Shown piece by piece: positions 12,109 to 30,682 of a DNA stretch of 32,418 bases. The translations under genes and the position numbers were made by a program. Source of the stretch: a bacterium (GTDB taxonomy: Bacteria > Latescibacterota > Latescibacteria > Latescibacterales > Latescibacteraceae); contig JAJFUH010000201.1 in NCBI GenBank assembly GCA_021372535.1, forward strand, positions 1-32,418, read 5' to 3'. Each line of letters begins with the position of its first letter. Within the stretch, counting starts at the first letter, position 1. The notes beneath the pieces were generated by a model, which was not told where the DNA came from, did not search any database, and worked only from the letters and a program-made list of their open reading frames with translations.

Positions 12109-14175
12109 TTATCGCCCTTGTTCCAGCACGAGTCCATCCGGTTCATTTTTGAATGTATATGAATACCGTTTACCATTCGCTGAGAACGATAACGAATAAT
12201 TCCCCGCGCGGTCAAGAGTTCTTTTCGCCGATTTCACAATGGCACGGGCTTCCCTGTCGCTGCCGACCGGGAGTATGATATGCGCTATGACAGTCCGGTC
12301 GGCGGGAGCATCGAGCACGGTGCCGTTATAGGGTATCCACTGGAAGGATGCCTGTTTCTGGAGCGCGAGATACGCATGCCGCGCGGGCCGGAACGCAAAC
12401 GGACACTCTACAACGGGGATGAGCGCCATATCGCCATCGGTGCCATCGAGCAGCGTATACCCGTCCCTGATGACCTGCGTGCAGTCGGAATGAAATCTCG
12501 CCTCTATCTCCGCCCCTTTCCGTGATTCGACCTCATCGACAACAACGGTGATAACCGGCTTTTCGAGAATGATATGACGGCGCCATTTTTTCAACTCTTT
12601 CTTCGGATAGGCGTCTGACGGGTCCATGAGGGTATAATCGCGGTCTTTGCCGGGCCGGAATTCGATGACTTTGCCGCCGATACGCTCATCGACCGGCTGC
12701 TTGTACAGTTTTCCGGGAATCTGCTGTTCCCCGTTCACAAAAATCAGATTGTGACCGGCACTCGATGCATGGGGAGTATCGTACTTTTCGGCGTCGAAAT
12801 ACTTTTCATCGTATACGGCGGTGCCGAGGTCGGCTATGTATCCCGCGCCATGCCAGAAGACGGTGAACTCACCGCAGTCGAGATGGCCGTGATGAGGATC
12901 GTCGTTTTTTCCGGCCTTGCACGCCACCATGACCTTATCGGGATCGGTGAAATCGCTCCTCATGACGACCCAGTCGATCGTGCGGAAGTGGATGGATGTC
13001 TGTTCGGGAAGTCCCGGCTTCACCGTGTTTTTCGGCCATATGATGTCGAAGATATCGTCGCCGTCTCCGAACATGGTTTCGAGAATCCACGCGCTCTCCC
13101 TGTTTCCCGTTTCGAGGGCGAGCTTGTTATAGAGACGGGGCGAGCCGACCTTGTGCATGCCCGCATCCTCGAAGTTCACGGCGTCCCAGCGTGGCGGTAT
13201 GCTGAGATAGAGGGGAAAGTTGACCGGATTGTTCGCTATTTTCGGGTGTTTGAACAGATCATATTGACCGTTCGTAAGCCGTTTCAGGGAATCCATGAAA
13301 AGCAGGGACATTCGGACAGTCTGCGCCCAGTACGCGGCTCCCTCCTGCCATCCGCCGTCAACGCCGATTTCATCGAATGTTCTGCCGATACGGTTGTACG
13401 ACTCGGCTATGACATCGGTAAGCTCGGGATTCTCGGTCAGAAGGGTGAGCGCGGCAAGCCCGAGCCCGGTATTGCACCAGGCGCACCAGTTGCAGCGGTA
13501 GGCGGTCGACCACCAGTGATACTGGTAGTTTCCGCGAACCTGGATAATCGCCTTCTCCATGAGAGCGCCCCGTATCCAGTCACGCTGCTCGACAGTAAGT
13601 ACCGGGTAGAGCCAGTCGTATACCGCCGAGAGATCGCTCGCGGTGTCGCTGGCGAGAATCGCATAGGTGAACACCACCTTGTCATCGGTCACATTCCACG
13701 GACTGACACGCTTGTACGCCTTGGCGAACTGGCAGGCGCGCATGACCCAGGTTTCCATGTCACAGAGGACCTGGGCGAATTCGAAGGATTTGGCGGCATA
13801 TTTCTCCTCTCCGGTCATCTGGTACAGAAACGCGAGGATGTACGCCGCTCTCCGGTACTGCCCGTAAACGCTCAGAAAGTCGCCGCTCGTATCGAACCGT
13901 GAATCTTTAAGCTCACGGGGCAGCGGAGTCACGACCGGAGTATAGAGCAGACGGTTTGCCTCGGCGAGGAGCCTGTTCATGATATCACGGCATGCGGGGT
14001 CACGATCGATCCGGTCGAGGATGGCGGGTTTTTCATCCTCGGTGAAGTAGAGATAAGGGTGCCTGAGATTCTGCCTGAGCGACCGGGCGATATCATCGGA
14101 TGTGACATCGGCATAGGATATTCCCGCGCACGGTATTACAAGCATGCTCCATATAAGTACCTGTCGAAATGTCAT
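12109..14175 (-). CDS. Exported heparinase II/III-like polysaccharide lyase B
   Basis: This 688-residue paralogue of lyase A should degrade a uronate-bearing glycan by elimination. The ATG at 14175 has AAAGGAG 8 nt upstream and begins a good signal peptide (about 1-22, ending SYA). The frame is open for another 55 codons upstream, but that stretch reads through a hairpin element and is not protein-like. The toroid motifs are HPYLYFTEDEKP, YRCNWCAWCNTGLG and DGGWQEGAAYW (Tyr282 a candidate catalytic residue). The sandwich domain has HHGHLDCGEF (428-437) and AGHNLIFVNGEQQ. Relative to A it carries a different loop at about 88-108 and 318-345, around regions that in this superfamily often border the active site, so the two may differ in specificity. 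Confidence 0.88.
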   Translation of the reverse strand: MTFRQVLIWSMLVIPCAGISYADVTSDDIARSLRQNLRHPYLYFTEDEKPAILDRIDRDPACRDIMNRLLAEANRLLYTPVVTPLPRELKDSRFDTSGDFLSVYGQYRRAAYILAFLYQMTGEEKYAAKSFEFAQVLCDMETWVMRACQFAKAYKRVSPWNVTDDKVVFTYAILASDTASDLSAVYDWLYPVLTVEQRDWIRGALMEKAIIQVRGNYQYHWWSTAYRCNWCAWCNTGLGLAALTLLTENPELTDVIAESYNRIGRTFDEIGVDGGWQEGAAYWAQTVRMSLLFMDSLKRLTNGQYDLFKHPKIANNPVNFPLYLSIPPRWDAVNFEDAGMHKVGSPRLYNKLALETGNRESAWILETMFGDGDDIFDIIWPKNTVKPGLPEQTSIHFRTIDWVVMRSDFTDPDKVMVACKAGKNDDPHHGHLDCGEFTVFWHGAGYIADLGTAVYDEKYFDAEKYDTPHASSAGHNLIFVNGEQQIPGKLYKQPVDERIGGKVIEFRPGKDRDYTLMDPSDAYPKKELKKWRRHIILEKPVITVVVDEVESRKGAEIEARFHSDCTQVIRDGYTLLDGTDGDMALIPVVECPFAFRPARHAYLALQKQASFQWIPYNGTVLDAPADRTVIAHIILPVGSDREARAIVKSAKRTLDRAGNYSLSFSANGKRYSYTFKNEPDGLVLEQGR

Positions 14176-14253
14176 GGTTCCGCTCCTTTGTTTATGAGGG
14201 CTGTGAAAAAGTATATTTTTCACGAGCCCGATAATGAAATGTATTGTTTCGGT

Positions 14254-14326
14254 GCTGTCAAGGGCATGTAAACATGTCCCCGAATCATTAATCGGGGATC
14301 GGCACTTCATGCCGACCCTTGACAGC
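14254..14326. repeat. 73-bp cloverleaf-shaped inverted-repeat element
   Basis: An 11-bp perfect closing stem, GCTGTCAAGGG (14254-14264) with CCCTTGACAGC (14316-14326), encloses three hairpins that touch each other with no spacer. They are CATG-TAAA-CATG (14265-14276), TCCCCGA/TCGGGGA (14277-14298) and TCGGCA-CTTCA-TGCCGA (14299-14315). Every base outside the three loops is paired. The middle hairpin, 22 nt, recurs exactly in the opposite orientation at 27433-27454. It lies in the leader region of lyase gene B, and the TTGACA inside the closing stem (minus strand) could be a -35 box. Confidence 0.8.
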
Positions 14327-14393
14327 TTATATCCACACATACAGACTTTATCATAAGACTTTTAAAGTATTATAGAAGGCAGAAAAATATCGA

Positions 14394-16586: not shown

Positions 16587-17120
16587 ATGTATTCTCTTTT
16601 TTATATGGAGTTTATCTGAAAAACTTTTAATCCCTCGTTGTGACAATCAACGATCATCATGGCTATTTTTATTTTCCGGACAACGGTACAGTATTGTACA
16701 TGATAATGCATAATGGAAGGGCATTAAACAAGTTAATATATGATAGTAATCCCTCTTTTTTCTCAAAACACTTTATTAATATGATACTTTCCTTTGCACG
16801 CCCAAAGGAAAGTATCCAAAGGAAAGGGCGCCCGTGAAAAACCTGTTTCCTCATATGCTTCGCGATTTTCGGGAAGCGCAAAACTCACACATCTTCGATG
16901 CGCTCGGACAGTTGCGCTTCTTTTCCCGAAAACCGTTCGCATATTCGGGGCTTTTCAACGGGTTTAATCCACAGGCCTTTCTGGTTCATATTCTATTCAT
17001 AACCAATACTTTTGAAAACTTCATTATTTATTTCCATGACACTTGAAATAACCGTCCGACAGTGTTATACTTCTCTTTACAAAACAATACTGCTCCGAAT
17101 CATTCGAAAAGGTGACCGCC
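16587..17120. other. Divergent intergenic region with long imperfect hairpin
   Basis: This region separates the divergent propeller and oxidoreductase-like genes and must contain promoters for both, though I cannot place them with confidence. A repeat-like segment with words such as caaaggaaagtatccaaagg runs from about 16790. It is followed by an inverted repeat with arms TTTTCGGGAAGCGCAA (16866-16881) and 16912-16932, where the right arm carries a 5-nt insertion (CTTTT). No gene is seen. Confidence 0.55.
16866..16932. repeat. Imperfect inverted repeat
   Basis: The left arm TTTTCGGGAAGCGCAA (16866-16881) is complementary to TTGCGCTT plus CCCGAAAA in 16912-16932, with CTTTT inserted between the two parts of the right arm. 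The loop is about 30 nt. It is likely a degenerate REP-type sequence; no promoter or terminator role is evident. Confidence 0.55.
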
Positions 17121-18194
17121 ATGGAAACGAGACGTTCATTCATGAAGAAAACCGCCCTGACCGGGATCGCAGGAATTCTCGCATCCGGGCATGCTCCCGT
17201 ATTCGCCCGTGATATGGGTATGCTGAAGCTCAGCAGGCTCGGGCTCGGCTCTCATAATTTTCTCGGAAGGTTCAAAACTCCGCCGGAGAGTTTCAAAGGC
17301 CCGGTGAAATGTAAACCGTACGCCGTATGGGACGATATCCCCGAGGTTGCCGATGCGATGAAGGGCGATCTCTTCGAAAAGGTGATGCGCGACCCGGTCG
17401 AGGTAGTGAAGGAATCGGACGGTATTCTCGTGATGCACGCGGATTACCGTAAGGTGTTCGAGCTCGCTCAGCCCGCGCTCGAAATGGGAAAGCCCGTGTT
17501 CATCAACCGGCCGTTCACCGCAACAATCGCCGATGCCGAGGAAGCGGTACGGCTCGCGCGGGCATACAATACGCCGCTCATGAGCGCCTCGTCGCTCGAG
17601 TTCCAGCCGGAGATTATGGACATGCAGAAGTTTATCGTGGACAAAGGGCCGCTCCGCGCCTATGAGGCATACTGCTGCGAGCCGCATTTCACCTGGCACT
17701 TCCCCCATGTCATCAACTATGCCCATGCGGCTCTCGGCGGAGGATTCGAGTCTGCCTATTTCGCCGGTGACTATGTCATGGAGCTCCGGTCGTGGACACT
17801 CGACAAAAAACCGATCGGCTCGTCCCTCTGCGTTCTCACCTATAAACCGCGCGAGGGCCAGCCGCCGGTCATCGGGATGAACCACTGCGGCGCCCAGCCC
17901 GGGGGATACCACATCGATGTATACTGCATGCAGGAAAACAAGCTCTTTCAGGCGGATAACAAGACCCTGTTCGATCACATGTTCACCGCGCTCCACGAGT
18001 TCTTTGTCAGCCGCACTGTTCCTCGGCCGTACGAGGCAATTCTCGAACAGCACCGCGCCCTCGTGGCAGCGAATGTCTCACGGCTTACCGGGAAAGCGGT
18101 CAGTCTCGATTCGCTCGGCGGGGAAGACGCTCTTCCCTATTCGGAAGGCATCCGCCGTTACATTGTCAACCGGACATTGAACAAAAAACAGTGA
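17121..18194 (+). CDS. Tat-exported Gfo/Idh/MocA-like protein, paralogue 1
   Basis: This 357-residue protein resembles the NAD(P)-dependent Gfo/Idh/MocA sugar oxidoreductases but looks degenerate. The ATG at 17121 is chosen because AAAAGG lies upstream at good distance; a GTG at 17112 overlaps it. The Tat signal is TRRSFMKK followed by a small-residue hydrophobic stretch ending FAR. The Rossmann glycine motif reads GLGSHN (41-46), with the third glycine replaced by Asn. The usual EKP catalytic motif reads NRP (129-131). FPHVINYAHAALGGG keeps the family histidine but not, in my alignment, the catalytic aspartate four residues before it. The end matches paralogues (RPYEAILEQHRALVAANVSRL). Its substrate and activity are unknown. 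Confidence 0.85.
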   Translation: METRRSFMKKTALTGIAGILASGHAPVFARDMGMLKLSRLGLGSHNFLGRFKTPPESFKGPVKCKPYAVWDDIPEVADAMKGDLFEKVMRDPVEVVKESDGILVMHADYRKVFELAQPALEMGKPVFINRPFTATIADAEEAVRLARAYNTPLMSASSLEFQPEIMDMQKFIVDKGPLRAYEAYCCEPHFTWHFPHVINYAHAALGGGFESAYFAGDYVMELRSWTLDKKPIGSSLCVLTYKPREGQPPVIGMNHCGAQPGGYHIDVYCMQENKLFQADNKTLFDHMFTALHEFFVSRTVPRPYEAILEQHRALVAANVSRLTGKAVSLDSLGGEDALPYSEGIRRYIVNRTLNKKQ

Positions 18195-18203
18195 AGTCGA
18201 CGG

Positions 18204-18312
18204 AATTATTGCTTCGTGGATCAAATAAGGATACAAAGAGCAGGAACAGATGCCGAAACAAGTTCGGCATGACGTTATTAAATATCACAATCTATCCACC
18301 GGCGCAATAATT
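18204..18312. repeat. Family A MITE/REP-like element, copy 3
   Basis: The left end aattattgcttcg starts at 18204 and the right end ccggcgcaataatt stops at 18312. The centre has the TGCCGAA/TTCGGCA hairpin identical to copy 1, then TGACGTTAT. It fills most of the gap between oxidoreductase-like paralogues 1 and 2. Confidence 0.8.
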
Positions 18313-18380
18313 ACTGTAAAACTATCGATAAACCATAAAACATGAATACATACGTTTCGACCGAAGAAAAGGAATACGGC

Positions 18381-19457
18381 ATGAAAACGGAAAAAGGCTC
18401 CATCATAACGAAAACAGCCCTGGCGGGCATAGCCGGAATTGTCGCGGCGGGGAAAGCTCCGGCGTATGCAAAGGACGGGAAAATCCTCAAAATCGGGGTT
18501 CTGGGTCTCGGTTCACACAGCTTCGCCGCGCGATTCAAGAATCCGCCCGCTGACTACACGAAACCGATACTTGTCAGACCCTACGGCGTATGGGACGATG
18601 TACCCGGAGTCGCCGAATTCATGAAGGGCGATATCTACGAAAAGGTTTACAAAGACCCGGTCACCCTCGTCCGCGAGTGCGACTGCATCCATATCGAGCA
18701 CGCCGATTACCGTAAGGTGTTCGAGCTCGCCCAGCCGGCGCTCGAAATGGGTAAGCCCGTATTCATCAACCGGCCGTTCACCGCGACAATCGCCGATGCC
18801 GAGGAAATCGTCCGGCTCGCCCGAAAATATGACGCCCCGCTCATGAGCGCGTCATCGCTCGAATTCGGAGGGGAAATCCCCGAAATGCAGAAGTTCGCCG
18901 TGGAAAAAGGCCCCATCCGCGCGTACGAAGCATACGGCCCCGAGGCGCATTTCACCTGGCATTTCCCCCATGTCATCAATTACGCTCATGCGGCGCTCGG
19001 CGGCGGCATCGATTCGGTCTATTTCACCGGGCATTTCGGGATCGATATGCGGACATGGCGCATCGAAAAGGAACAGATCGGGGCATCTCTGTGCGTTCTC
19101 ACCTACAAACCCCGTGAGGGTCAGCCCCCCATGATCGGCATGTGCCATATCGGGAACTACAAGGGGCAGTTCCATATCGATGTGTATGGAGCGCAGGAAA
19201 ACAGGGACTTCACCCTCCAGGGCAAATGGGACATGAATATGTTCGACAAGCTCAACGACCTCTATTCGTTCAGAAAGGTGCCGCGCCCGTACGAGGCGAT
19301 CCTCGAACAGCACCGCACTCTTGTCGCCGCCAATGTATCGAGGCTCAGAGGGTGCGCGGTGACGCTCGATTCGCTCGGCGGCGAGGATGCGCTTCCCTAT
19401 TCGGAGGGGATACGGCTCTATGTTTTGAGAAATTTCTATGAAAGCCAGAAGAAATGA
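18381..19457 (+). CDS. Gfo/Idh/MocA-like protein, paralogue 2, twin arginine lost
   Basis: This 358-residue protein is closely related to its neighbours. The ATG at 18381 is preceded by AAAGGA about 8 nt away; the frame is open back to 18342 but without a comparable site. The N-terminus begins MKTEKGSIITKTALAGIAG. It aligns with the Tat signals of the paralogues but lacks the two arginines, so export by Tat is doubtful. The glycine motif is GLGSHS (42-47), and the EKP position reads NRP (130-132). HFPHVINYAHAALGGG and RPYEAILEQHRTLVAANVSRL are conserved. The gene follows paralogue 1 by 186 bp, a gap mostly filled by a family A element. It may be an evolving or decaying copy. Confidence 0.83.
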   Translation: MKTEKGSIITKTALAGIAGIVAAGKAPAYAKDGKILKIGVLGLGSHSFAARFKNPPADYTKPILVRPYGVWDDVPGVAEFMKGDIYEKVYKDPVTLVRECDCIHIEHADYRKVFELAQPALEMGKPVFINRPFTATIADAEEIVRLARKYDAPLMSASSLEFGGEIPEMQKFAVEKGPIRAYEAYGPEAHFTWHFPHVINYAHAALGGGIDSVYFTGHFGIDMRTWRIEKEQIGASLCVLTYKPREGQPPMIGMCHIGNYKGQFHIDVYGAQENRDFTLQGKWDMNMFDKLNDLYSFRKVPRPYEAILEQHRTLVAANVSRLRGCAVTLDSLGGEDALPYSEGIRLYVLRNFYESQKK

Positions 19458-19522
19458 GTGTCATGCGGAAATGCTCATGAATCACATATCTAAAATTTAA
19501 GAATGAATCCAAGGGAAGAAAT

Positions 19523-19555
19523 GGAACGCGAATTTTCGCGGATTAGTTTTTTATA
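19523..19555. repeat. CGCGGATT-type intergenic word
   Basis: The word GGAACGCGAATTTTCGCGG followed by a short T-rich stretch resembles 11709-11731 and the doubled version at 25547-25590. It lies just downstream of paralogue 2 at the edge of the accessory block. Confidence 0.45.
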
Positions 19556-19567
19556 TAAGAATCCGGG

Positions 19568-19786
19568 TCAGTACTTTTCCCATTCTTCTATTGATATTCC
19601 AGCCTGTCGCAGAATTCTTGCCAGAAACTCTTTACCGATGTCTTTCTTGTGAGGATTCGGAATTGTGAGGGTCAAATCCCCTCTGAGCATAAAGGAATGC
19701 TTTCCGCCGGAATATGGGCCATCAAAGCCGCACTTCCTGAGGCACCTGACAAGGACGTCTCTTTTAACTGGGCCTAAAGGCGGCAT
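19568..19786 (-). CDS. hicA: HicA-like toxin (mRNA interferase)
   Basis: This 72-residue basic protein fits HicA toxins, which cut translated mRNA using a double-stranded-RNA-binding fold. The pattern RKCGFDGPYSGGKHSFML contains the family G-x-H-x-F/M signature, with His30 as the expected catalytic residue, then LTIPNPHKKDIGKEFLARILRQAGIS, which is typical of HicA. Its ATG shares one base with the stop of the upstream hicB (TGATG), so translation is coupled and the antitoxin comes first. The pair sits in the interrupted oxidoreductase array with opposite orientation, as expected of an acquired module. Confidence 0.82.
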   Translation of the reverse strand: MPPLGPVKRDVLVRCLRKCGFDGPYSGGKHSFMLRGDLTLTIPNPHKKDIGKEFLARILRQAGISIEEWEKY

Positions 19787-20034
19787 CAGACAACTACCTG
19801 TTTCTTAATCCTGATTTCGTTTGCATCGATTTTAGGAATCGGGAGATTCTTATAAACACGAAACAGAATCCATTCCTCCAAAACCTCCTCCAACTCATTT
19901 CTGCACTGCTCCAGGGTCGAAGCATTTGAATAAACACCGGGACACTCCAGAATCTCGCCGTAATATGTCTTGTCATCCTGGAGGATTTCATATCTCGCAC
20001 GCTTCATGGCAGATTGTATATACTGTCTGATCAT
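19786..20034 (-). CDS. hicB: HicB-like antitoxin
   Basis: This 82-residue acidic protein has the HicB fold signature: YEILQDDKTYYGEILECPG followed by VYSNASTLEQCRNELEEVLEEWI. It should bind and neutralise the HicA made from the next gene. The start at 20034 has AGAGGAG close upstream. I see no obvious ribbon-helix-helix or helix-turn-helix tail, so autoregulation by this protein alone is uncertain. The last base of its stop codon is the first base of the hicA start. Confidence 0.82.
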   Translation of the reverse strand: MIRQYIQSAMKRARYEILQDDKTYYGEILECPGVYSNASTLEQCRNELEEVLEEWILFRVYKNLPIPKIDANEIRIKKQVVV

Positions 20035-20491
20035 ATTTCTCCTCTTTTTTCTTCGTAAACCATACTATCAGTATCGCCACTCGCATTTTCTTGCGTTCAG
20101 ACTTTTTGCATAATAAAAAATTTTCCGAACTGATAACAAGAGGTCAACTCTGTTCGGCGGTTTAGTAACGCAGACACAATGCCTCGAACACTCAGTTCAG
20201 TAAAATAAAGAAATTCCTGGAAATTGACTATCCTCGCAGCAGAACTACGTGGTATTACGCCAATTTTCTGGTACTTCGTGCCAACGGAATTTCTGAAAAA
20301 ACCAAAGCATGATAACCCAAGAGTAGAACTCCGAGGAATTCTTTTGATTAAACTTTCTATAAAAATCCCTCTTTGAGAAGAACACGCCCACCCGCCATAC
20401 GCAACGGCGTCTTGTGCACTTTAAGCGAGGCACGACCAATCTGAACAACTCCTCAACTCTGTCGGTACCACGCGCTTGTTAGGCGGCCCTC
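20035..20491. other. Intergenic stretch between hicBA and an unrecognised gene
   Basis: No convincing gene is present. A 67-codon minus-strand frame (20245-20448) overlaps a dispersed 21-nt word at 20332-20352 that recurs at 30728-30748, so it is better read as repeat sequence. CCGAAC (20125-20130) and GTTCGG (20152-20157) form a hairpin base. On the minus strand, GCCTAAC starts 7 nt after the stop of the 20492-21169 gene, which resembles half of an integron attC site. Confidence 0.5.
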
Positions 20492-21169
20492 TTACTCGGC
20501 CTTTACAAGCAGAACTTGCTTAATATCACCTGTGTTCAACTCTCGACGCCACTTACGGCGGTCCGTTTCGTAGAGCTGAAGGCAACCTTGGGCCAGATGA
20601 TGATACAATCGATCACGCATACAAAAGCTTGGAACCATACCAGCCGCGCGAATTGCATCCGGCAGGCCAGAAGGGGTTGGCACAGGTGGCCAGTCCTCGA
20701 GCGCGTGTAATCCTGGACCGGACCAGGCAAAATACCGTTCTTGGAGCTCAACTCCTTGCCAAGGCTCTCGCGAATGCGGTTCTTGTCCAGAGATGATCTC
20801 GACCACGCGCACAACTGACTCGACTGCTGCGGCAGCCAGCTCGCCATCAGCTCTTACGGCTGTCCGGCGATGCTGAAGCGCGTCGGCCAGGGCAACAGCG
20901 TCACGCGCGAACTTCCGTGCCTCTTCATTCCCCGAACCAGGCAAGACGGCGGCGATGTAGGCGTCGAACATCCGCTTCGCATCCGTTGCACTTGGCGTCA
21001 CGCTGTCAGTTTGAGGATGAGTATCCGCGTCATAGACAGCCTGTGCCAGGGAGATGAGAGCCTCGCGACAGCATAGTCCGACGGCCTGCAGGTCTTCCTC
21101 GGTGTCGGCCGTAAGAAGTCGGTCATTTATCGCATCAACGGCGCGATGAATATAGTCCCAATCTTTCAT
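20492..21169 (-). CDS. Unrecognised 225-residue accessory protein
   Basis: I cannot assign a function. The protein is soluble, mostly helical and mildly acidic, with no signal peptide. The segment ARKFARDAVALADALQHRRT followed by a helix and VVRVVEIISGQ resembles a helical region I associate with accessory hypothetical proteins. The C-terminal part is rich in Trp, Tyr and His (ERYFAWSGPGLHALEDWP, DRLYHHLAQG). The ATG at 21169 has a weak AAGG upstream. Its stop is followed by GCCTAAC, the kind of sequence that ends many integron cassettes. It lies among a toxin-antitoxin pair and a gene relic, so mobile defence or stress cargo is possible. Confidence 0.6.
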   Translation of the reverse strand: MKDWDYIHRAVDAINDRLLTADTEEDLQAVGLCCREALISLAQAVYDADTHPQTDSVTPSATDAKRMFDAYIAAVLPGSGNEEARKFARDAVALADALQHRRTAVRADGELAAAAVESVVRVVEIISGQEPHSREPWQGVELQERYFAWSGPGLHALEDWPPVPTPSGLPDAIRAAGMVPSFCMRDRLYHHLAQGCLQLYETDRRKWRRELNTGDIKQVLLVKAE

Positions 21170-21329
21170 GTACCTTGGCTCAGGTTACGATCTTTTGAGT
21201 GGATATTGCTGGCCTCTCTAACAATGATAATACAGTCTGTTAAAACAGGTAAACTAGGCTCTTGTTTTCTGTATAAAAAAATTCCCGTCTCTTCTATTTA
21301 TTTCTCATAATAACATTCAAATCAACCAT

Positions 21330-21620
21330 TTATCTGTGTTGGTAGTCATTTGTCTTTTGCATCGATTCATTCAAAACCGGCTTCCCGTTTGTCCATAATT
21401 CATATTCGCTCAGATCAATGTCATCGTTCCACGAAATTCCATACCCTCATGTATCAACCCTGAAAGCCTTGAAAAACACCGGATTCCTCAAAGGATAAAA
21501 CCGGGGGCGTGAAAGAAGCGGTTTACAGTCGTAAACCTTCTGTTCGCCGTTATCAAAGCATATAAGGAACTGCATTGCTCCAATCACAGTTGCCGATTTG
21601 ATTTTGGATACTTGCTCCAT
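21330..21620 (-). pseudogene. DUF2442 family gene with in-frame TGA
   Basis: Translated on the minus strand from the ATG at 21620, this frame gives a DUF2442-like protein: VIGAMQFLICFDNGEQKVYD, then KPLLSRPRFYPLRNPVFFKA and FRVDT. A TGA at 21447-21449 (codon 58) interrupts it. The same frame resumes with GYGISWNDDIDLSEYELW and ends at TAA (21330-21332). The family normally reads about V-D-x-G-G-Y-G-I-x-W here, so the TGA most likely replaced a glycine codon by one base change. DUF2442 proteins are small and often paired with DUF4160; no DUF4160 frame was found upstream. A good promoter lies at 21675-21702. Confidence 0.75.
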
Positions 21621-21674
21621 GGCAGATTTACTCCAAACCCGGCATCATATCTTTACCATTCATATATGTATATC

Positions 21675-21702
21675 AAAATACCACAAATCCACACCCTGTC
21701 AA
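21675..21702 (-). promoter_or_regulatory. Sigma-70-like promoter for the DUF2442 relic
   Basis: On the minus strand TTGACA (21697-21702) is followed after 16 nt by TATTTT (21675-21680) and then GATATA. The same arrangement, TTGACA-N16-TATTTTGATATA, occurs on the plus strand at 25828-25861. It points at the DUF2442 frame about 50 nt away and is divergent from paralogue 3. Confidence 0.6.
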
Positions 21703-21799
21703 GCATTTTCCGCCTTCCTTTCCCCTTTACATTCCCTTCTTCTGTCCTTAAATTATTCTCATAAAAAAAGAAAAAAATCCTCTTTTCCGGAGTGTTTTC

Positions 21800-22897
21800 A
21801 TGTCTACCCGACGTTCGTTTATCCGCACATCCGCTCTTACCGGAATCGGCGGCATCATTGCCGCAGGTCAGGCGCCCGCATTCGCCCAGGACATGAAGAT
21901 GGTGAAGATCGGGCAGCTCGGTCTCGGCTCGCATGGTTTCGTGGGCCGGTTCAAAAATCCGGCGCCGAAATACAAGGACATCATTCGGTGCAAACCGTAC
22001 GCGGTATGGGACGATGTCCCCGGCGTCGCGGAAAAAATGCTCCCGATGGGCTTCGAGAAAGCCATCGGCGACCCGGTCGAGCTTGTCAAAGAATCCGATG
22101 TCGTCCATGTCGAACACGCCGACTACCGCCGTGTGCTCGAACTCGCCCGTCCCGCGCTCGAAATGGGCAAGCCGGTGTTCATCAACCGTCCCTTCGCCGC
22201 CAGTATCGCCGATGCCGAGGAAATCGTCCGCCTCGCCCGCGCGCACAACGCCCCCCTCATGTGCGCATCCTCGCTCGAATTCCAGCCGGAAATCCCCCTC
22301 ATCGGAAAATTCGCCGAGGAAAAGGGCCCGGTGCGCAGCTACATGGCGTACTGCCCGGAGCCGTATTTCACATGGATGTTCCCCCATGTCATCAATTTCG
22401 CTAACGCCGCGCTCGGCGGGGGAATCGACTCCGCCTATTTCAGCGGGGATTACATCATCGAGATGGGGGATATCAGGATCGAGGACGGGAAATTCGTCGA
22501 CCCCAAACGGCCATACGGTTCCGCGGTCAGCCTCCTGACCTATAAACCACGTGACGGGCAGCCGCCGATTATCGGCATGTGCCAGATCGGACAGAGCCCG
22601 GGAACCTACAACATCTATGTCTATGCGTACAAGGAGAGCAGGAATTTCGTGGCGGGCGGAGAGCTCAATGCGGCAAACATTTTCGAGTGCATGTTCCTGA
22701 CCCTCAACGACTTTTATGTGAACCGCAGACCGCCGCGGCCGTACGAGGCGATTCTCGAACAGCACCGTGCCCTCGTTGCCACGAATGCTTCACGGCTGTC
22801 CGGGAAGGCGGTGAAACTCGATTCCCTCAAAGGCAGCGATGCGCTCCCCTACGACGAATCGATCCGTAACTATCTTTTGAAACGATACAGGAACTGA
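21800..22897 (+). CDS. Tat-exported Gfo/Idh/MocA-like protein, paralogue 3
   Basis: This 365-residue protein has a standard Tat signal (TRRSFIRTSALTG, ending AFAQ). The ATG at 21800 has GGAG about 9 nt upstream. The Rossmann motif is complete here, GLGSHG (41-46), and AVWDD follows at the second strand. The EKP position again reads NRP (129-131). WMFPHVINFANAALGGG keeps the family His. A loop after YIIEMGD is longer than in paralogue 1. It is the most diverged of the four (ARPALEMGKPVFINRPFAAS; RPPRPYEAILEQHRALVATN). It may bind a dinucleotide, but hydride transfer of the usual kind is unlikely without the catalytic lysine. The accessory block ends just upstream. Confidence 0.86.
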   Translation: MSTRRSFIRTSALTGIGGIIAAGQAPAFAQDMKMVKIGQLGLGSHGFVGRFKNPAPKYKDIIRCKPYAVWDDVPGVAEKMLPMGFEKAIGDPVELVKESDVVHVEHADYRRVLELARPALEMGKPVFINRPFAASIADAEEIVRLARAHNAPLMCASSLEFQPEIPLIGKFAEEKGPVRSYMAYCPEPYFTWMFPHVINFANAALGGGIDSAYFSGDYIIEMGDIRIEDGKFVDPKRPYGSAVSLLTYKPRDGQPPIIGMCQIGQSPGTYNIYVYAYKESRNFVAGGELNAANIFECMFLTLNDFYVNRRPPRPYEAILEQHRALVATNASRLSGKAVKLDSLKGSDALPYDESIRNYLLKRYRN

Positions 22898-22925
22898 GAG
22901 GGTGGTGAAGGTTGAATTATACATT

Positions 22926-23008
22926 GCGACATAAATAATTGCGCATGTTATTAGCGATCAGATCCTGAAACGAGTTCAGGATGACGGTCACGCCGAATTC
23001 GTTTCGGC
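22926..23008. repeat. Family B 83-bp repeat, copy 1
   Basis: This 83-bp sequence matches 24274-24356 at 75 of 83 positions by my count, in the same orientation. It contains the hairpin CCTGAAACGAGTTCAGG followed by ATGACGG, and ends in a second GCCGAA/TTCGGC hairpin. The two copies flank oxidoreductase-like paralogue 4 as direct repeats. Confidence 0.85.
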
Positions 23009-23080
23009 TTCTATTTTATAAATAAACGCAGTGAAATATTTCATCATGAATAAATCATTACCATTGTCGGAGATACAAAC

Positions 23081-24193
23081 ATGAAAACGAGGAGAACCTT
23101 TTTAAAAACGGCCGCCGCGGGTGGGCTTGCCGGAATTATCTCAGCCGGGAAACCACCCGCTTTTGCCCAGGACAGCACCAAAATCAAGGTCGGTCAGCTC
23201 GGTCTCGGCTCCCATGGTTTCGTCGAGTCGTTTGTCAAGCCGCCGGAGAAATACCGCAGTATCGTGCGCTGCAGGCCCTATGCGGTCTGGGACGATGTCC
23301 CCGAAGCGGCGGAAGCGCTCAAAAGAACCTACGGCTTCGAGAAAATCATCGCCGATCCGGTGCAGCTCGTAAAGGAATCGGATGTCGTCCATGTGGAGCA
23401 CGCCGATTACCGTAAGGTGTTCGAGCTCGCCCAGCCTGCACTCGAAGCGGGGAAACCGGTGTTCATCAACAGGCCGTTTACCGCGACCATCGCCGATGCC
23501 GAGGAAGTAATCCGTCTCGCCCGGGCGTACGATGCGCCGGTCATGAGCGCATCATCGCTCGAATTCCAGCCCGTTGTGGCGGAAATGCAAAAATTCGCCG
23601 GAGAAAAAGGGCCGGTCCGGGCATACGAAGCGTACTGTCCCGAGCCTCATTTCACATGGATGTTCCCCCATGTCATCAACTATGCGCACGCGGCGCTCGG
23701 CGGGGGAATCGAGTCGGCGTACTTCACCGGGGAATACCTCATGGACATGACACGCTGGATCGATGAAAAACGCCCTCCGCTCGATCTTGGCAAGTGGATA
23801 GGCGAGACCAAGCCCATCGGGTCGTCACTCTGCGTCCTCACTTACAAACCCCGCGAGGGACAGCCGCCGATGATCGGCATGTGCCATATCGGGGCACACC
23901 CGGGAAGCTATCACATCGATGTGTATGCGGCGCAGGAAAACAGGCTGTTCGAGGCCGACACCGCGACCATTTTCGACCACATGTTTCTCACTCTCCACGA
24001 TTTCTACGTCAACCGCACGGTTCCCCGGCCGTACGAGGCGATTCTCGAACAGCACCGGGCGCTCGTGGCGGCGAATGTCTCACGGCTTACCGGGCGCGCG
24101 GTCAGGCTCGACTCACTCGGAGGAGGCGATTCGCTCCCCTATTCGGAAGCTATACGCCGGTGGCTGCTCCGTAATTTCATGGGGATGAAATGA
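23081..24193 (+). CDS. Tat-exported Gfo/Idh/MocA-like protein, paralogue 4
   Basis: This 370-residue protein starts at 23081 with GGAG about 9 nt upstream. The Tat signal is TRRTFLKTAAAGG, ending AFAQ. The glycine motif GLGSHG (41-46) is intact, the EKP position reads NRP (130-132), and WMFPHVINYAHAALGGG carries the family His. It is longest in the loop after YLMDMTRW, where about 12 residues are inserted relative to paralogue 1. Long stretches of DNA are nearly identical to paralogues 1 and 2, for example around 23401-23440 and 24025-24090, which suggests recent duplication or gene conversion. The gene lies between two direct copies of the family B repeat. It precedes the aldo/keto reductase-like gene by 275 bp. 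Confidence 0.86.
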   Translation: MKTRRTFLKTAAAGGLAGIISAGKPPAFAQDSTKIKVGQLGLGSHGFVESFVKPPEKYRSIVRCRPYAVWDDVPEAAEALKRTYGFEKIIADPVQLVKESDVVHVEHADYRKVFELAQPALEAGKPVFINRPFTATIADAEEVIRLARAYDAPVMSASSLEFQPVVAEMQKFAGEKGPVRAYEAYCPEPHFTWMFPHVINYAHAALGGGIESAYFTGEYLMDMTRWIDEKRPPLDLGKWIGETKPIGSSLCVLTYKPREGQPPMIGMCHIGAHPGSYHIDVYAAQENRLFEADTATIFDHMFLTLHDFYVNRTVPRPYEAILEQHRALVAANVSRLTGRAVRLDSLGGGDSLPYSEAIRRWLLRNFMGMK

Positions 24194-27271: not shown

Positions 27272-27645
27272 TGCAGGCAGAAGGCTTTAAAGGCAGGCAT
27301 AAGGCTTTAAAGGCAGGCATAAGGCAAAAGGCATAAGGCATAAGGGGGAAAGAATAAAGACAGGTAATAAGGTATAGGGGGAAAAAGAGACAAATAGAGG
27401 CTTCGGCTCTCTTCCTGAAGGTTTGAGATGGGTCCCCGATTAATGATTCGGGGACGACGGGTGGTGCTGTGCGGATTATTTTCACTCAGTGCCTTTTTTC
27501 AATTCACTCAGTGCCTTTGTCACCGTTTTCTCATACACTCAGTGCCTCAGTGCCTTTGCCCCTTAATCACTGTTTTTTCATTCACTTGTGCCTTATGCCT
27601 TTTGCCTTATGCCTGTTTTTTATACCTTGTGCCTTCTGCCTTTTT
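27272..27645. repeat. Aggcataagg word array with a 25-nt perfect inverted repeat
   Basis: Words built from aggcataagg are stacked at about 27272-27345, and reverse-complement words (tgccttatgcc, cactcagtgcc) at about 27482-27645. A 25-nt segment at 27314-27338 is exactly complementary to 27591-27615. The array lies directly upstream of the third lyase gene. Confidence 0.75.
27433..27454. repeat. Isolated copy of the cloverleaf hairpin
   Basis: This 22-nt palindrome (TCCCCGA and TCGGGGA type arms) is the exact reverse complement of 14277-14298, the middle hairpin of the cloverleaf element. Here it stands without the closing stem or the other two hairpins. Confidence 0.75.
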
Positions 27646-27709
27646 TCCCGATATTACCGGATATTTCCTGCGCCTGAACTTACATACATATCATCCCGTG
27701 AGGTCATCA

Positions 27710-30682
27710 ATGAAAATCCGCTCCGCAGTTCCCCCGATCGTTATTGTGCTCTGCCTGTTGTCCTGCGGCAGGCAGGCAACGCGCCGTGACAGCATCGCCA
27801 TCCCGACCGGCCCGGATACCGCAATCAAACGTGACGGCAACATCGAAAAAATCGCGTGGGACAAGGATGGCAGCGTTGTCTGGGATGCTCCGGTGGGAGA
27901 CCGCGTCCTCTGCGCATTTCCCCTGCCCGAAGGGGTGCGGCTCGACAACTACGGGCTCTGCAAGTTCGACATACGGATTACCGGAGGGCCGGTCGATGTC
28001 ATGATCTTTATCGAACGCCCCGGGGAAAAACACATGGTCTACCGTCCCATCGACGTCAACATGCCGCGCCCCGGATGGCAGACCATTCACCTCGACCTGA
28101 ATCAGCCGGAGATCATCCGTCAGAGCCATTTCACCTACGACCGTCCGGGCATAGCGTTCAACCTCTGGGCGATGAATACGGGGTATCCCGAACAGGAAGC
28201 CTCGCGTAAAATCGAGATCAGAAACGTGCGGCTTACCAGACGATTCCTCGATGTCAGGTGGAACGAGGTCGATTATAGCACCATTCCCGACCGGTCGGGC
28301 GATCTCATATATGAATATCCCGTCACGGTCTATAACAAGGATACGAAATCCCGCACAGTGCATGCACGGCTCGATTGTCCGGACAGCGGTTATGGAACGG
28401 GCATCATTACACCGGGGAAAGCGGTTCTCGCCCCCGGCGATTCGATGGTCTGCATGGCAGTTCTTCGTCTTCCCGCAGAGCGCCTGAAACAGCTGCCGGT
28501 GCTGTACTGCGAATGGTTCATGCCGGTGTTTTCGCTGGAAGGTATCTCCGACTCCGACGAGAGCATTCTCCGTTCGAGCGACAGAATCAGCCTGCCCCTC
28601 ATTATCATGCCGCGCGCGGAAATCCCGTTCGCACTCTTCGACAGCGATGGTCTCCGTCAGATGCGCGAGCGGTATAAATCCACGGACTGGGGACGGAAGG
28701 AAGGCGATGCCGTCATCGCAGCCGCCGAGAAGATACTCGCGAGCGACCTCACGATCCCCGATGGTCCCGGATGGGCGCGCGCCTACTATTACTGCGAGGA
28801 ACACCGCTGCGTCCTCCAGTACCAGGGGCCGGGCAAGCATTACTGCCCGGTTGGCGGCGAATACCGTACGGTGGATTTCGAGGGAGTCGACCTCGACCGT
28901 GACTACCGCGCCGGGGAGCATGACCGGTGCAGGGCATGGACGCGGACGCTCGCGCTCGCATATGCGCTGACCGGGGATGCGCGGTTCAGCACAGGGGCGC
29001 TCACCATCATCAACCAGTACCGGAAGAACTACTTCACGTACGACTGGCTCGATCTCGATGTCTCGAACAAAACGATCGACAAGGGAAGGCTCCATTTCGC
29101 CAAGTACATGGAGACATACGGGTTCAGGGCCATGATCGAGGCGCTCGATCTCCTCCGGGCGACCGGCGGGGTTCCCGATGACGAAGCGCAGGGGATAATC
29201 CGCGAGCTCTTCCTGCCCGCTCTAACGGAGATAGCCGACTACCGCATGGACATGCTCTGCCGTCAGACGACCATTACGGCAACGGCGCTCATCGGCGGTC
29301 TCACTTTCAACCATGCGCCGCTTGTGGCCTTTGCGGCACGGAGCCCGTACGGGTATTTCGGGCTGCGCCGGTGGGGAGCCACCGCGGACGGCATCGGGCA
29401 CGGTCACGGGTATGCACAGAACGGATACACGACCCACTGTGTCGAGATGGCCGAATTCCTGTACCGCATCGGCCTCGATACGTTCGATGAAGAACTGAAG
29501 CGTCTCATTGACGGATCGTTCTGGTGGAGCGAACCGATGAATCCATCGGCCATGGCGCAGGCATTCTCGATCGCCGCCCGTCACTATCCCGATCCCGTGT
29601 ACCGTAAATACGCCAGCCGCTCACTCATCGGTGGCGAGCCGCCCGCATACAGAGGCGGTGACATCGACCTGACTGTCCCGCCCACGGTGAATTTTCCCAA
29701 TTCCGGGCTTACCATACTCCGAAGGCCGCTCGACAGCGGTACGCTCGACGCCGAATTCAAGTGGAGCATGCCGGACAACCGGGGCTCGTTCTCGGTGATG
29801 TCGCTGGGGCTGAACTTCTACGGATACCGGTGCCAGAGCTACCCGGGGCATTTCAACTGGGGATCGACCGACCTCCATCACAAGTGGCAGATACAGTCGG
29901 CCTCTCATACGACAATCGTCGTCGACCGTCACAACCAGTCGGGTATGAAAGACTACTTCAAGGGGCACTACATGCCCCATCCCTCGCGCCAGATATTCTT
30001 CGAGGACGGCCCCGACGCGGCGGTGACCATGGCATACAACGACCGTATCTATCCCGGAGTCCGTATCTGGCGGACGGTATGCGTCATGGACGGCGCCTGT
30101 CTCATCATCGACTCGCTCCGTTCGGAGGCCGAGCACACGTATGACTGGTGGTTCCACGGCGTTCCCGATCATTCCAACGGCCGCGAGGGATTATCGCTCG
30201 TCCTGAATCCACGTCCGGAACCGCTCGGAAATGAGGACGGGTACGAGATGGTACAGAATCTTTCATCGGCATCGACCGACAGCGATTTCGGGAGCGACTG
30301 GATCATACCGGCAGAGGGCAGCCGGGGACGGCTCACCCTGTCGATGCGCGCGCTCAACACCGCGCCGGTCGAGGTTGTTCATGGATTCGAGTGGTCGTAC
30401 CAGTACCGGACGCCGGAAAAGGAATTCGTGGTTCTCCGGCGCGACAAGGCGCGGAACGCCGATTTCTGCGTCCTGCTCGAACCGCACAAGGGCGCGGCGA
30501 AGCTGACGAAATACGAGCGGTTCATTCCCGCGGATGAAAAGGGGAACCCGGTTGACAGCGCCATAGGATTGAACATCACGCTCAGCGGGAAATCTTTCGA
30601 AATCGTGTCAAACCCGGAAGGACATACGGTGAAAACGGTCAGGGGAACGACTGACAAGGTGTTCTCGGTGGGGCGGAGATAA
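27710..30682 (+). CDS. Heparinase II/III-like lyase C, putative lipoprotein
   Basis: The 990-residue protein begins at 27710 (GAGG upstream), where a lipoprotein signal appears: PPIVIVLCLLSC, with Cys20 as the lipidation site. The reading frame is open further upstream but only through repeat sequence. Residues about 45-190 look like a carbohydrate-binding-type beta-sandwich. An Ig-like segment follows, then an alpha/alpha toroid (about 310-640) with QTTITATALIGGLTFN and DGIGHGHGYAQNGYTTH. The C-terminal heparinase II/III-like sandwich has ASHTTIVVDRHNQSG and DGACLIIDSLRSE. It should be surface- or periplasm-anchored and cleave a uronate-containing chain. It is far from lyases A and B in sequence. 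A perfect terminator follows at 30784. Confidence 0.85.
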   Translation: MKIRSAVPPIVIVLCLLSCGRQATRRDSIAIPTGPDTAIKRDGNIEKIAWDKDGSVVWDAPVGDRVLCAFPLPEGVRLDNYGLCKFDIRITGGPVDVMIFIERPGEKHMVYRPIDVNMPRPGWQTIHLDLNQPEIIRQSHFTYDRPGIAFNLWAMNTGYPEQEASRKIEIRNVRLTRRFLDVRWNEVDYSTIPDRSGDLIYEYPVTVYNKDTKSRTVHARLDCPDSGYGTGIITPGKAVLAPGDSMVCMAVLRLPAERLKQLPVLYCEWFMPVFSLEGISDSDESILRSSDRISLPLIIMPRAEIPFALFDSDGLRQMRERYKSTDWGRKEGDAVIAAAEKILASDLTIPDGPGWARAYYYCEEHRCVLQYQGPGKHYCPVGGEYRTVDFEGVDLDRDYRAGEHDRCRAWTRTLALAYALTGDARFSTGALTIINQYRKNYFTYDWLDLDVSNKTIDKGRLHFAKYMETYGFRAMIEALDLLRATGGVPDDEAQGIIRELFLPALTEIADYRMDMLCRQTTITATALIGGLTFNHAPLVAFAARSPYGYFGLRRWGATADGIGHGHGYAQNGYTTHCVEMAEFLYRIGLDTFDEELKRLIDGSFWWSEPMNPSAMAQAFSIAARHYPDPVYRKYASRSLIGGEPPAYRGGDIDLTVPPTVNFPNSGLTILRRPLDSGTLDAEFKWSMPDNRGSFSVMSLGLNFYGYRCQSYPGHFNWGSTDLHHKWQIQSASHTTIVVDRHNQSGMKDYFKGHYMPHPSRQIFFEDGPDAAVTMAYNDRIYPGVRIWRTVCVMDGACLIIDSLRSEAEHTYDWWFHGVPDHSNGREGLSLVLNPRPEPLGNEDGYEMVQNLSSASTDSDFGSDWIIPAEGSRGRLTLSMRALNTAPVEVVHGFEWSYQYRTPEKEFVVLRRDKARNADFCVLLEPHKGAAKLTKYERFIPADEKGNPVDSAIGLNITLSGKSFEIVSNPEGHTVKTVRGTTDKVFSVGRR

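Follow-up and report, generated by a model that had tools for sequence, protein, structure and literature searches.

The window analysed here, a stretch of 32,418 nt, carries on its minus strand a gene for a heparinase II/III-type lyase with its ATG at 14175. Just beyond AAAGGAG, the likely ribosome-binding site of this gene, and 20 bp upstream of the ATG lies element A, a dispersed repeat in which 73 bases (14254-14326) fold into an exact four-way junction. Elsewhere in the window, positions 17112-24193 hold a set of four oxidoreductase-like paralogues that resemble each other in their N-terminal leader regions. Their neighbours include GH3, two SASA esterases and two heparinase-type lyases, and the whole has the look of a cluster for polysaccharide use. 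The features of element A are as follows.

14196..14361, plus strand: whole non-autonomous element, the mini-transposon (MITE) A in its 166-bp long form; limits set by flank conservation across dispersed copies
14192..14195, plus strand: left 4-bp flank TTAT, at the target duplication position; its partner is TTAA at 14362-14365, with one mismatch in the window copy
14196..14211, plus strand: left terminal repeat GAGGGCTGTGAAAAAG, resembling the IS1182-type ends AGGGCTTGTGATAAA (L199) and AAGGCCTGTGAAAAAG (L223)
14198..14229, plus strand: left-end hairpin GGGCTGTGAAAAAGTATATTTTTCACGAGCCC, one pair of which shows a T-A/G-C exchange across subfamilies
14254..14264, plus strand: left arm of the closing stem, GCTGTCAAGGG, from the fold and the alignment of copies
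14265..14276, plus strand: hairpin 1, CATGTAAACATG, whose second CATG is part of the 26-bp insert
14273..14298, plus strand: 26-bp insert CATGTCCCCGAATCATTAATCGGGGA, missing from ~77 short copies and shiftable by one base
14277..14298, plus strand: hairpin 2, a dispersed palindrome of 22 bp whose sequence recurs exactly at 27433-27454; a relative of CGTC-tagged REPs
14299..14315, plus strand: hairpin 3, TCGGCACTTCATGCCGA, native to the MITE core
14316..14326, plus strand: right arm of the closing stem, CCCTTGACAGC, from the fold and the alignment of copies
14340..14365, plus strand: right terminal region and flank, with 96% identity over 26 bp to the right end of an IS1182-family element (query positions 1498-1523)
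14362..14365, plus strand: right 4-bp flank TTAA, from the paired-flank comparison of copies

Our analysis confirmed the geometry given in the preliminary description, an 11-bp closing stem and three abutting hairpins of 12, 22 and 17 nt. Folded as RNA, positions 14254-14326 reach a minimum free energy of -41.3 kcal/mol (z -7.44, 0/200 shuffles) and folded as DNA -27.6 kcal/mol (z -8.47). The fold is therefore unlikely by chance, as had been claimed, but its precision, also put forward in that claim, is due to a palindrome inserted against an existing hairpin and not to demonstrated selection. An ARAGORN scan of the 73-base fold returned no tRNA, in agreement with the earlier reading, and the TTGACA pointed out in the closing stem does occur there, on both arms and facing outward. 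An Rfam search with the same 73 bases gave zero families above the gathering threshold. Over the element region, a promoter scan found 1 hit against 1.1 expected, which is the chance level, and a terminator scan gave nothing above chance.

The preliminary description had made its reading depend on second copies, and these exist: a covariance model of the 73-nt core matches 128 related cores in the genome from which the window comes (G000, 5.35 Mb in 236 contigs). A DNA search of this genome gave 40 scored copies, all of them matches. The covariance model had 0 matches in 40 relatives (including 1 of the same genus and 2 of the same family), and an exact-pattern scan of public genomes other than G000 found no copy of A. 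Similarity among the dispersed copies runs past the 73 bases and ends at fixed points, beyond which the sequences are unrelated; the adjoining genes are many and unrelated, and lie on either side. The fold is thus where it had been placed, but its extent had been drawn too narrowly, as the conserved repeat covers 14196-14361. Copies at contig ends were considered as ends of a long autonomous element and rejected, because they are assembly breaks in identical MITEs.

Element A is a mobile mini-transposon (MITE) of a new sequence family. Its terminal inverted repeats are imperfect (GAGGGC[GT]GTGAAAAAG with AAGTCTTGTGATAAAG or AAGCGTGGTGAAAAA), the ends reading GAGGGCTGTGAAAAAG on one strand against AAGTCTTGTGATAAAG on the other. 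Short target-site duplications are present: among the A copies with both ends located, 28 of 57 are flanked by identical 4-mers (shuffled mean 8.8, maximum 18, 5000 shuffles). The target sites fit NTAN, with TTAA commonest, and matching pairs other than TTAA include ATAG/ATAG, GTAA/GTAA, TTAC/TTAC, TTAG/TTAG and CTAA/CTAA. The 128 cores belong to dispersed non-coding copies whose short form (140 bp) and long form (166 bp) both fall within the 70-300 bp of a MITE and are too short to code for a transposase. One copy has inserted at TTTAA in a second repeat, B, and the uninterrupted site is known from other B copies. Repeat B (L168-L197, L034, L047) is a separate dispersed repeat of ~320 bp with ends CTGGC[AG]ACCCCC and target duplications of ~12 bp, such as CAAGGATTTTTT and CGCCGTATTTAA. 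GTCAAGG is frequent ~20 bp ahead of B at its sites and reads as a TTGAC (-35-like) motif on the other strand; this motif may be the reason why B is found, in either orientation, next to the GCTGTCAAGGG arms of A.

An autonomous element with the same ends is found on contig C167 (L199). This insertion sequence of 1,515 bp (L199:209-1723), with TTAA on both sides, encodes a 448-aa transposase of the IS1182 family (NF033551, 288.5 bits against a cut-off of 270) with the domains PF05598 and PF01609. Its right end matches the right ends of the MITEs, the window's included, over 24-29 bp at 93-100% identity, and its left end matches over only ~15 bp. The shared right end and the TTAA flanks make it the likely source of transposase for A, and the resemblance of ends suggests that A is moved in trans by the L199 enzyme. 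Against this assignment stand the short left-end match and the single IS1182-family copy found in the genome, to be set against ~130 MITEs. The closest public relative of the L199 transposase, on L223 (86% protein identity), belongs to an insertion sequence whose ends, AAGGCCTGTGAAAAAG and AAGTCTTGTGAAAAAG, fit the MITE left end even better than those of L199. L223 (JAPKXV010000357.1) is a contig of 4.2 kb catalogued with an archaeal MAG, a Methanoregula from Lake Pavin; so similar a transposase there means either that it was transferred recently or that a bacterial contig was misbinned. Another DDE candidate, L198, was rejected as partner because it has no A ends.

The origin of the junction is visible in the comparison of copies. 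The 128 matches have two core lengths, ~77 being short (47 nt) and ~51 long, the window copy included; these counts, based on match length, also take in cores that other insertions have split or cut. The 47-nt core, GCTGTCAAGGGCATGTAAATCGGCACTTCGTGCCGACCCTTGACAGC, consists of a stem, one hairpin and an 8-nt single strand and forms no four-way junction. Long cores have 26 further bases, CATGTCCCCGAATCATTAATCGGGGA, after GGGCATGTAAA, and there is no other difference. The exact abutting of the arms is therefore explained by a palindrome placed directly against an existing hairpin, its leading CATG pairing with the resident CATG.

The palindrome itself is a dispersed sequence, found in 112 places at ≤3 mismatches on both strands (0 for the reversed control). 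It also occurs at other MITE positions (L146, L148, L154), within repeat B (L120, L140) and in a third setting that includes positions 27433-27454 of the window. The palindrome is also part of repeats of the form CGTC-ATTCCCGAATCTTTAATCGGGAAT-CCA, for which a search with the tagged 31-mer, allowing 3 mismatches, gives 62 sites in this genome and none in 30 relatives. Free CGTC copies have the stem and tail of a REP but not its loop length. The palindrome in the window element has a 7-bp stem with a possible additional G-T pair and an 8-nt loop, followed by TCGG, and so departs from the REP pattern of an A-T-starting stem of 8-9 bp, a loop of 4-5 nt and a CCA tail; no CGTC tag was found on it, and ACATG precedes it instead. 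The identical palindrome at 27433-27454, on the minus strand, stands where the reading frame 27428-30682 begins, and its surroundings (CCCGTCG-TCCCCGAATCATTAATCGGGGA-CCCAT) resemble those of a CGTC REP. A longer dispersed repeat, ...CCCGTAACGCCGTCA-REP-TCCATATGCAGCCTGCATACATTTTTCATCCTTCGTTGTGACTATCTATAGTCATGG..., encloses the CGTC REP itself at L160, L162, L165 and further loci.

We put at about 0.9 the probability that a MITE mobilised by an IS1182-type DDE transposase has the 73-nt fold as its core, and that the junction was made by insertion of a palindrome into a 47-nt core. A would be a non-coding derivative whose terminal repeats are recognised by the IS1182-family transposase, acting in trans, with each transposition duplicating a 4-bp NTAN target. 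The original core of 47 nt would have consisted of two 11-bp inverted arms enclosing one hairpin. A 22-bp palindrome of the CGTC-REP kind, together with CATG, would have been inserted after GGGCATGTAAA; pairing of the added CATG with the resident one would convert a one-hairpin stem into an exact four-way junction, and the long form would then spread with the MITE and through core exchange between copies. Besides the imbalance in copy number and the short left-end match, three observations weigh against this explanation: the window copy has a one-base mismatch between its flanks (TTAT/TTAA), the MITE palindrome has neither the tag nor the tail that mark a CGTC REP, and whether a core is long or short does not follow flank subfamily.

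This last point calls for a more complex history. On a tree of the flanks, core length changes 18 times against 18.1 in shuffled data. Among the 55-57 A loci covered by these association analyses, the left and right flank subtypes are linked (mutual information 0.465 against 0.13 shuffled, 0/3,000), and core length is independent of either flank (0.023 and 0.030 against shuffled values of 0.041 and 0.043). A single insertion followed by simple descent is therefore insufficient and must be supplemented by exchange of cores or by recurrent gains and losses. Each flank is thus linked to the other but not to the core, so that cores seem to have passed between copies, most simply by short-tract gene conversion, or else the palindrome has been gained and lost. 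A loose pattern recognised no cores inverted relative to their flanks. A bolder proposal, which we consider doubtful, is that the 22-bp palindrome is a mobile unit that repeatedly enters and leaves cruciform-forming sites, and that the core between the 11-bp arms is exchanged as a cassette independently of the flanks. If true, this would give CGTC-type REPs a way to spread through capture by a MITE, with no need of a transposase of their own.

The same MITE could instead have had the 73-nt core from the beginning, with short cores arising by a 26-bp deletion. The presence of both core states in all flank subfamilies would fit such a history. We nevertheless find it improbable: three or more further sequence settings, as well as additional sites in A, have the palindrome independently, and copies split by repeat B retain the short-type left target copy CATGTAAATCGG. 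The change appears to have run from short to long core.

That the junction is a structured RNA or cis-regulatory leader, selected for example in connection with the minus-strand lyase, is very unlikely. In its favour are the strong fold, the almost invariant closing arms and a few double changes, in hairpin 2 (C-G to T-A), hairpin 3 (C-G to T-A) and the left-end hairpin (T-A to G-C). The near-invariance of the closing stem among copies, however, makes covariation there uninformative, and elsewhere the counts of compensated changes are within or barely over the shuffled range. In 20 aligned long cores, 3 pairs changed on both sides, the same as in controls slid by one column; hairpin 3 had 4 cells with compensated changes (shuffled mean 1.2, maximum 5), and the left-end hairpin 9 (shuffled mean 3.8, maximum 8), mostly from one subfamily-wide T-A/G-C exchange. 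Such counts carry little weight because the copies share ancestry. Of 21 long cores, ~10 have mismatches in hairpin 1, and together with the weak covariation this leaves no good evidence for a junction selected as RNA. The preliminary description would have given up its structural reading had covariation been absent, and the genome copies come close to that outcome. It would likewise have done so if homologous loci were without the structure, and such a locus exists: in the same-genus genome G001, the end of a related propeller/FlgD-tail protein is followed in the same order by the lyase (66% identity), and there is no element between the two genes. The insertion is thus specific to the lineage or the locus and is not an ancestral leader. 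Its proposal of a structured leader of the lyase, as origin or selected role, finds no support in view of this locus, of the unrelated genes beside the copies on either side and of the ~77 copies without hairpins 1 and 2; the lack of an Rfam match also counts against it. The junction probably has no selected role as RNA, and element A may still lie within the lyase 5' UTR and affect the lyase.

Least credible of all is an IS200/IS605- or RAYT-type element whose hairpins are recognised by a Y1 transposase, for although A has palindromic ends and hairpins and the genome one clear Y1 transposase, neither the palindrome nor an A end lies near the best Y1 genes, A makes true 4-bp target duplications, which Y1 elements are not known to make, and its ends match those of a DDE IS1182 element, so that the duplications and the matching insertion sequence largely refute it. 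The 22-bp palindrome as a RAYT/IS200-type REP was rejected for the same lack of palindromes flanking the genome's Y1 transposase genes, and L051, a weak Y1 fragment match, merely adjoins an A copy. The mobile single-strand-processed element of the preliminary description is accordingly mobile, as the 28 matched flanks indicate, but not single-strand-processed.

A MITE family with an inserted REP-like palindrome is a new combination of known kinds. With IS1182-family insertion sequences, A shares terminal sequences and TTAA-type flanking sites; the window element differs in having no coding capacity, and the ends alone are common to both. In Nostoc, small dispersed palindromic repeats of 20-27 bp are nested in mini-transposons, as the palindrome is in A; the sequence and the organism group are different, and the comparison is one of form. 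The bacterial MITEs RUP, NEMIS, ERIC, Bcr1, Nezha, QMITE2 and Chunjie (reviewed in PMC10969869) resemble A in being small, non-coding and intergenic, with terminal inverted repeats, target duplications, strong secondary structure and an insertion sequence with the same ends, whereas A is a new sequence family with an IS1182-family partner and has an internal CGTC-REP-like palindrome in ~40% of copies. For readings of structure from a single genome, A is a caution, as a seemingly engineered four-way junction can come from ordinary nested insertion. CGTC-tagged REPs, which include Neisseria dRS3, have been reported lodged in other palindromes and without a dedicated transposase (Di Nocera et al., 2013, PMC3733652). 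The free copies here, CGTC-ATTCCCGA-(loop)-TCGGGAAT-CCA, share the tag, the A-T stem start and the CCA tail but have an 8-nt loop instead of 4-5 nt, and the copy in the MITE differs further in lacking the CGTC tag and CCA tail and in being carried by a transposase-dependent MITE. Element A thus allows occupied and empty sites for a palindrome of this class (PMC3733652) to be compared, which is rarely possible, and with a MITE and its candidate transposase as a possible carrier, the spread of such palindromes becomes a testable question.
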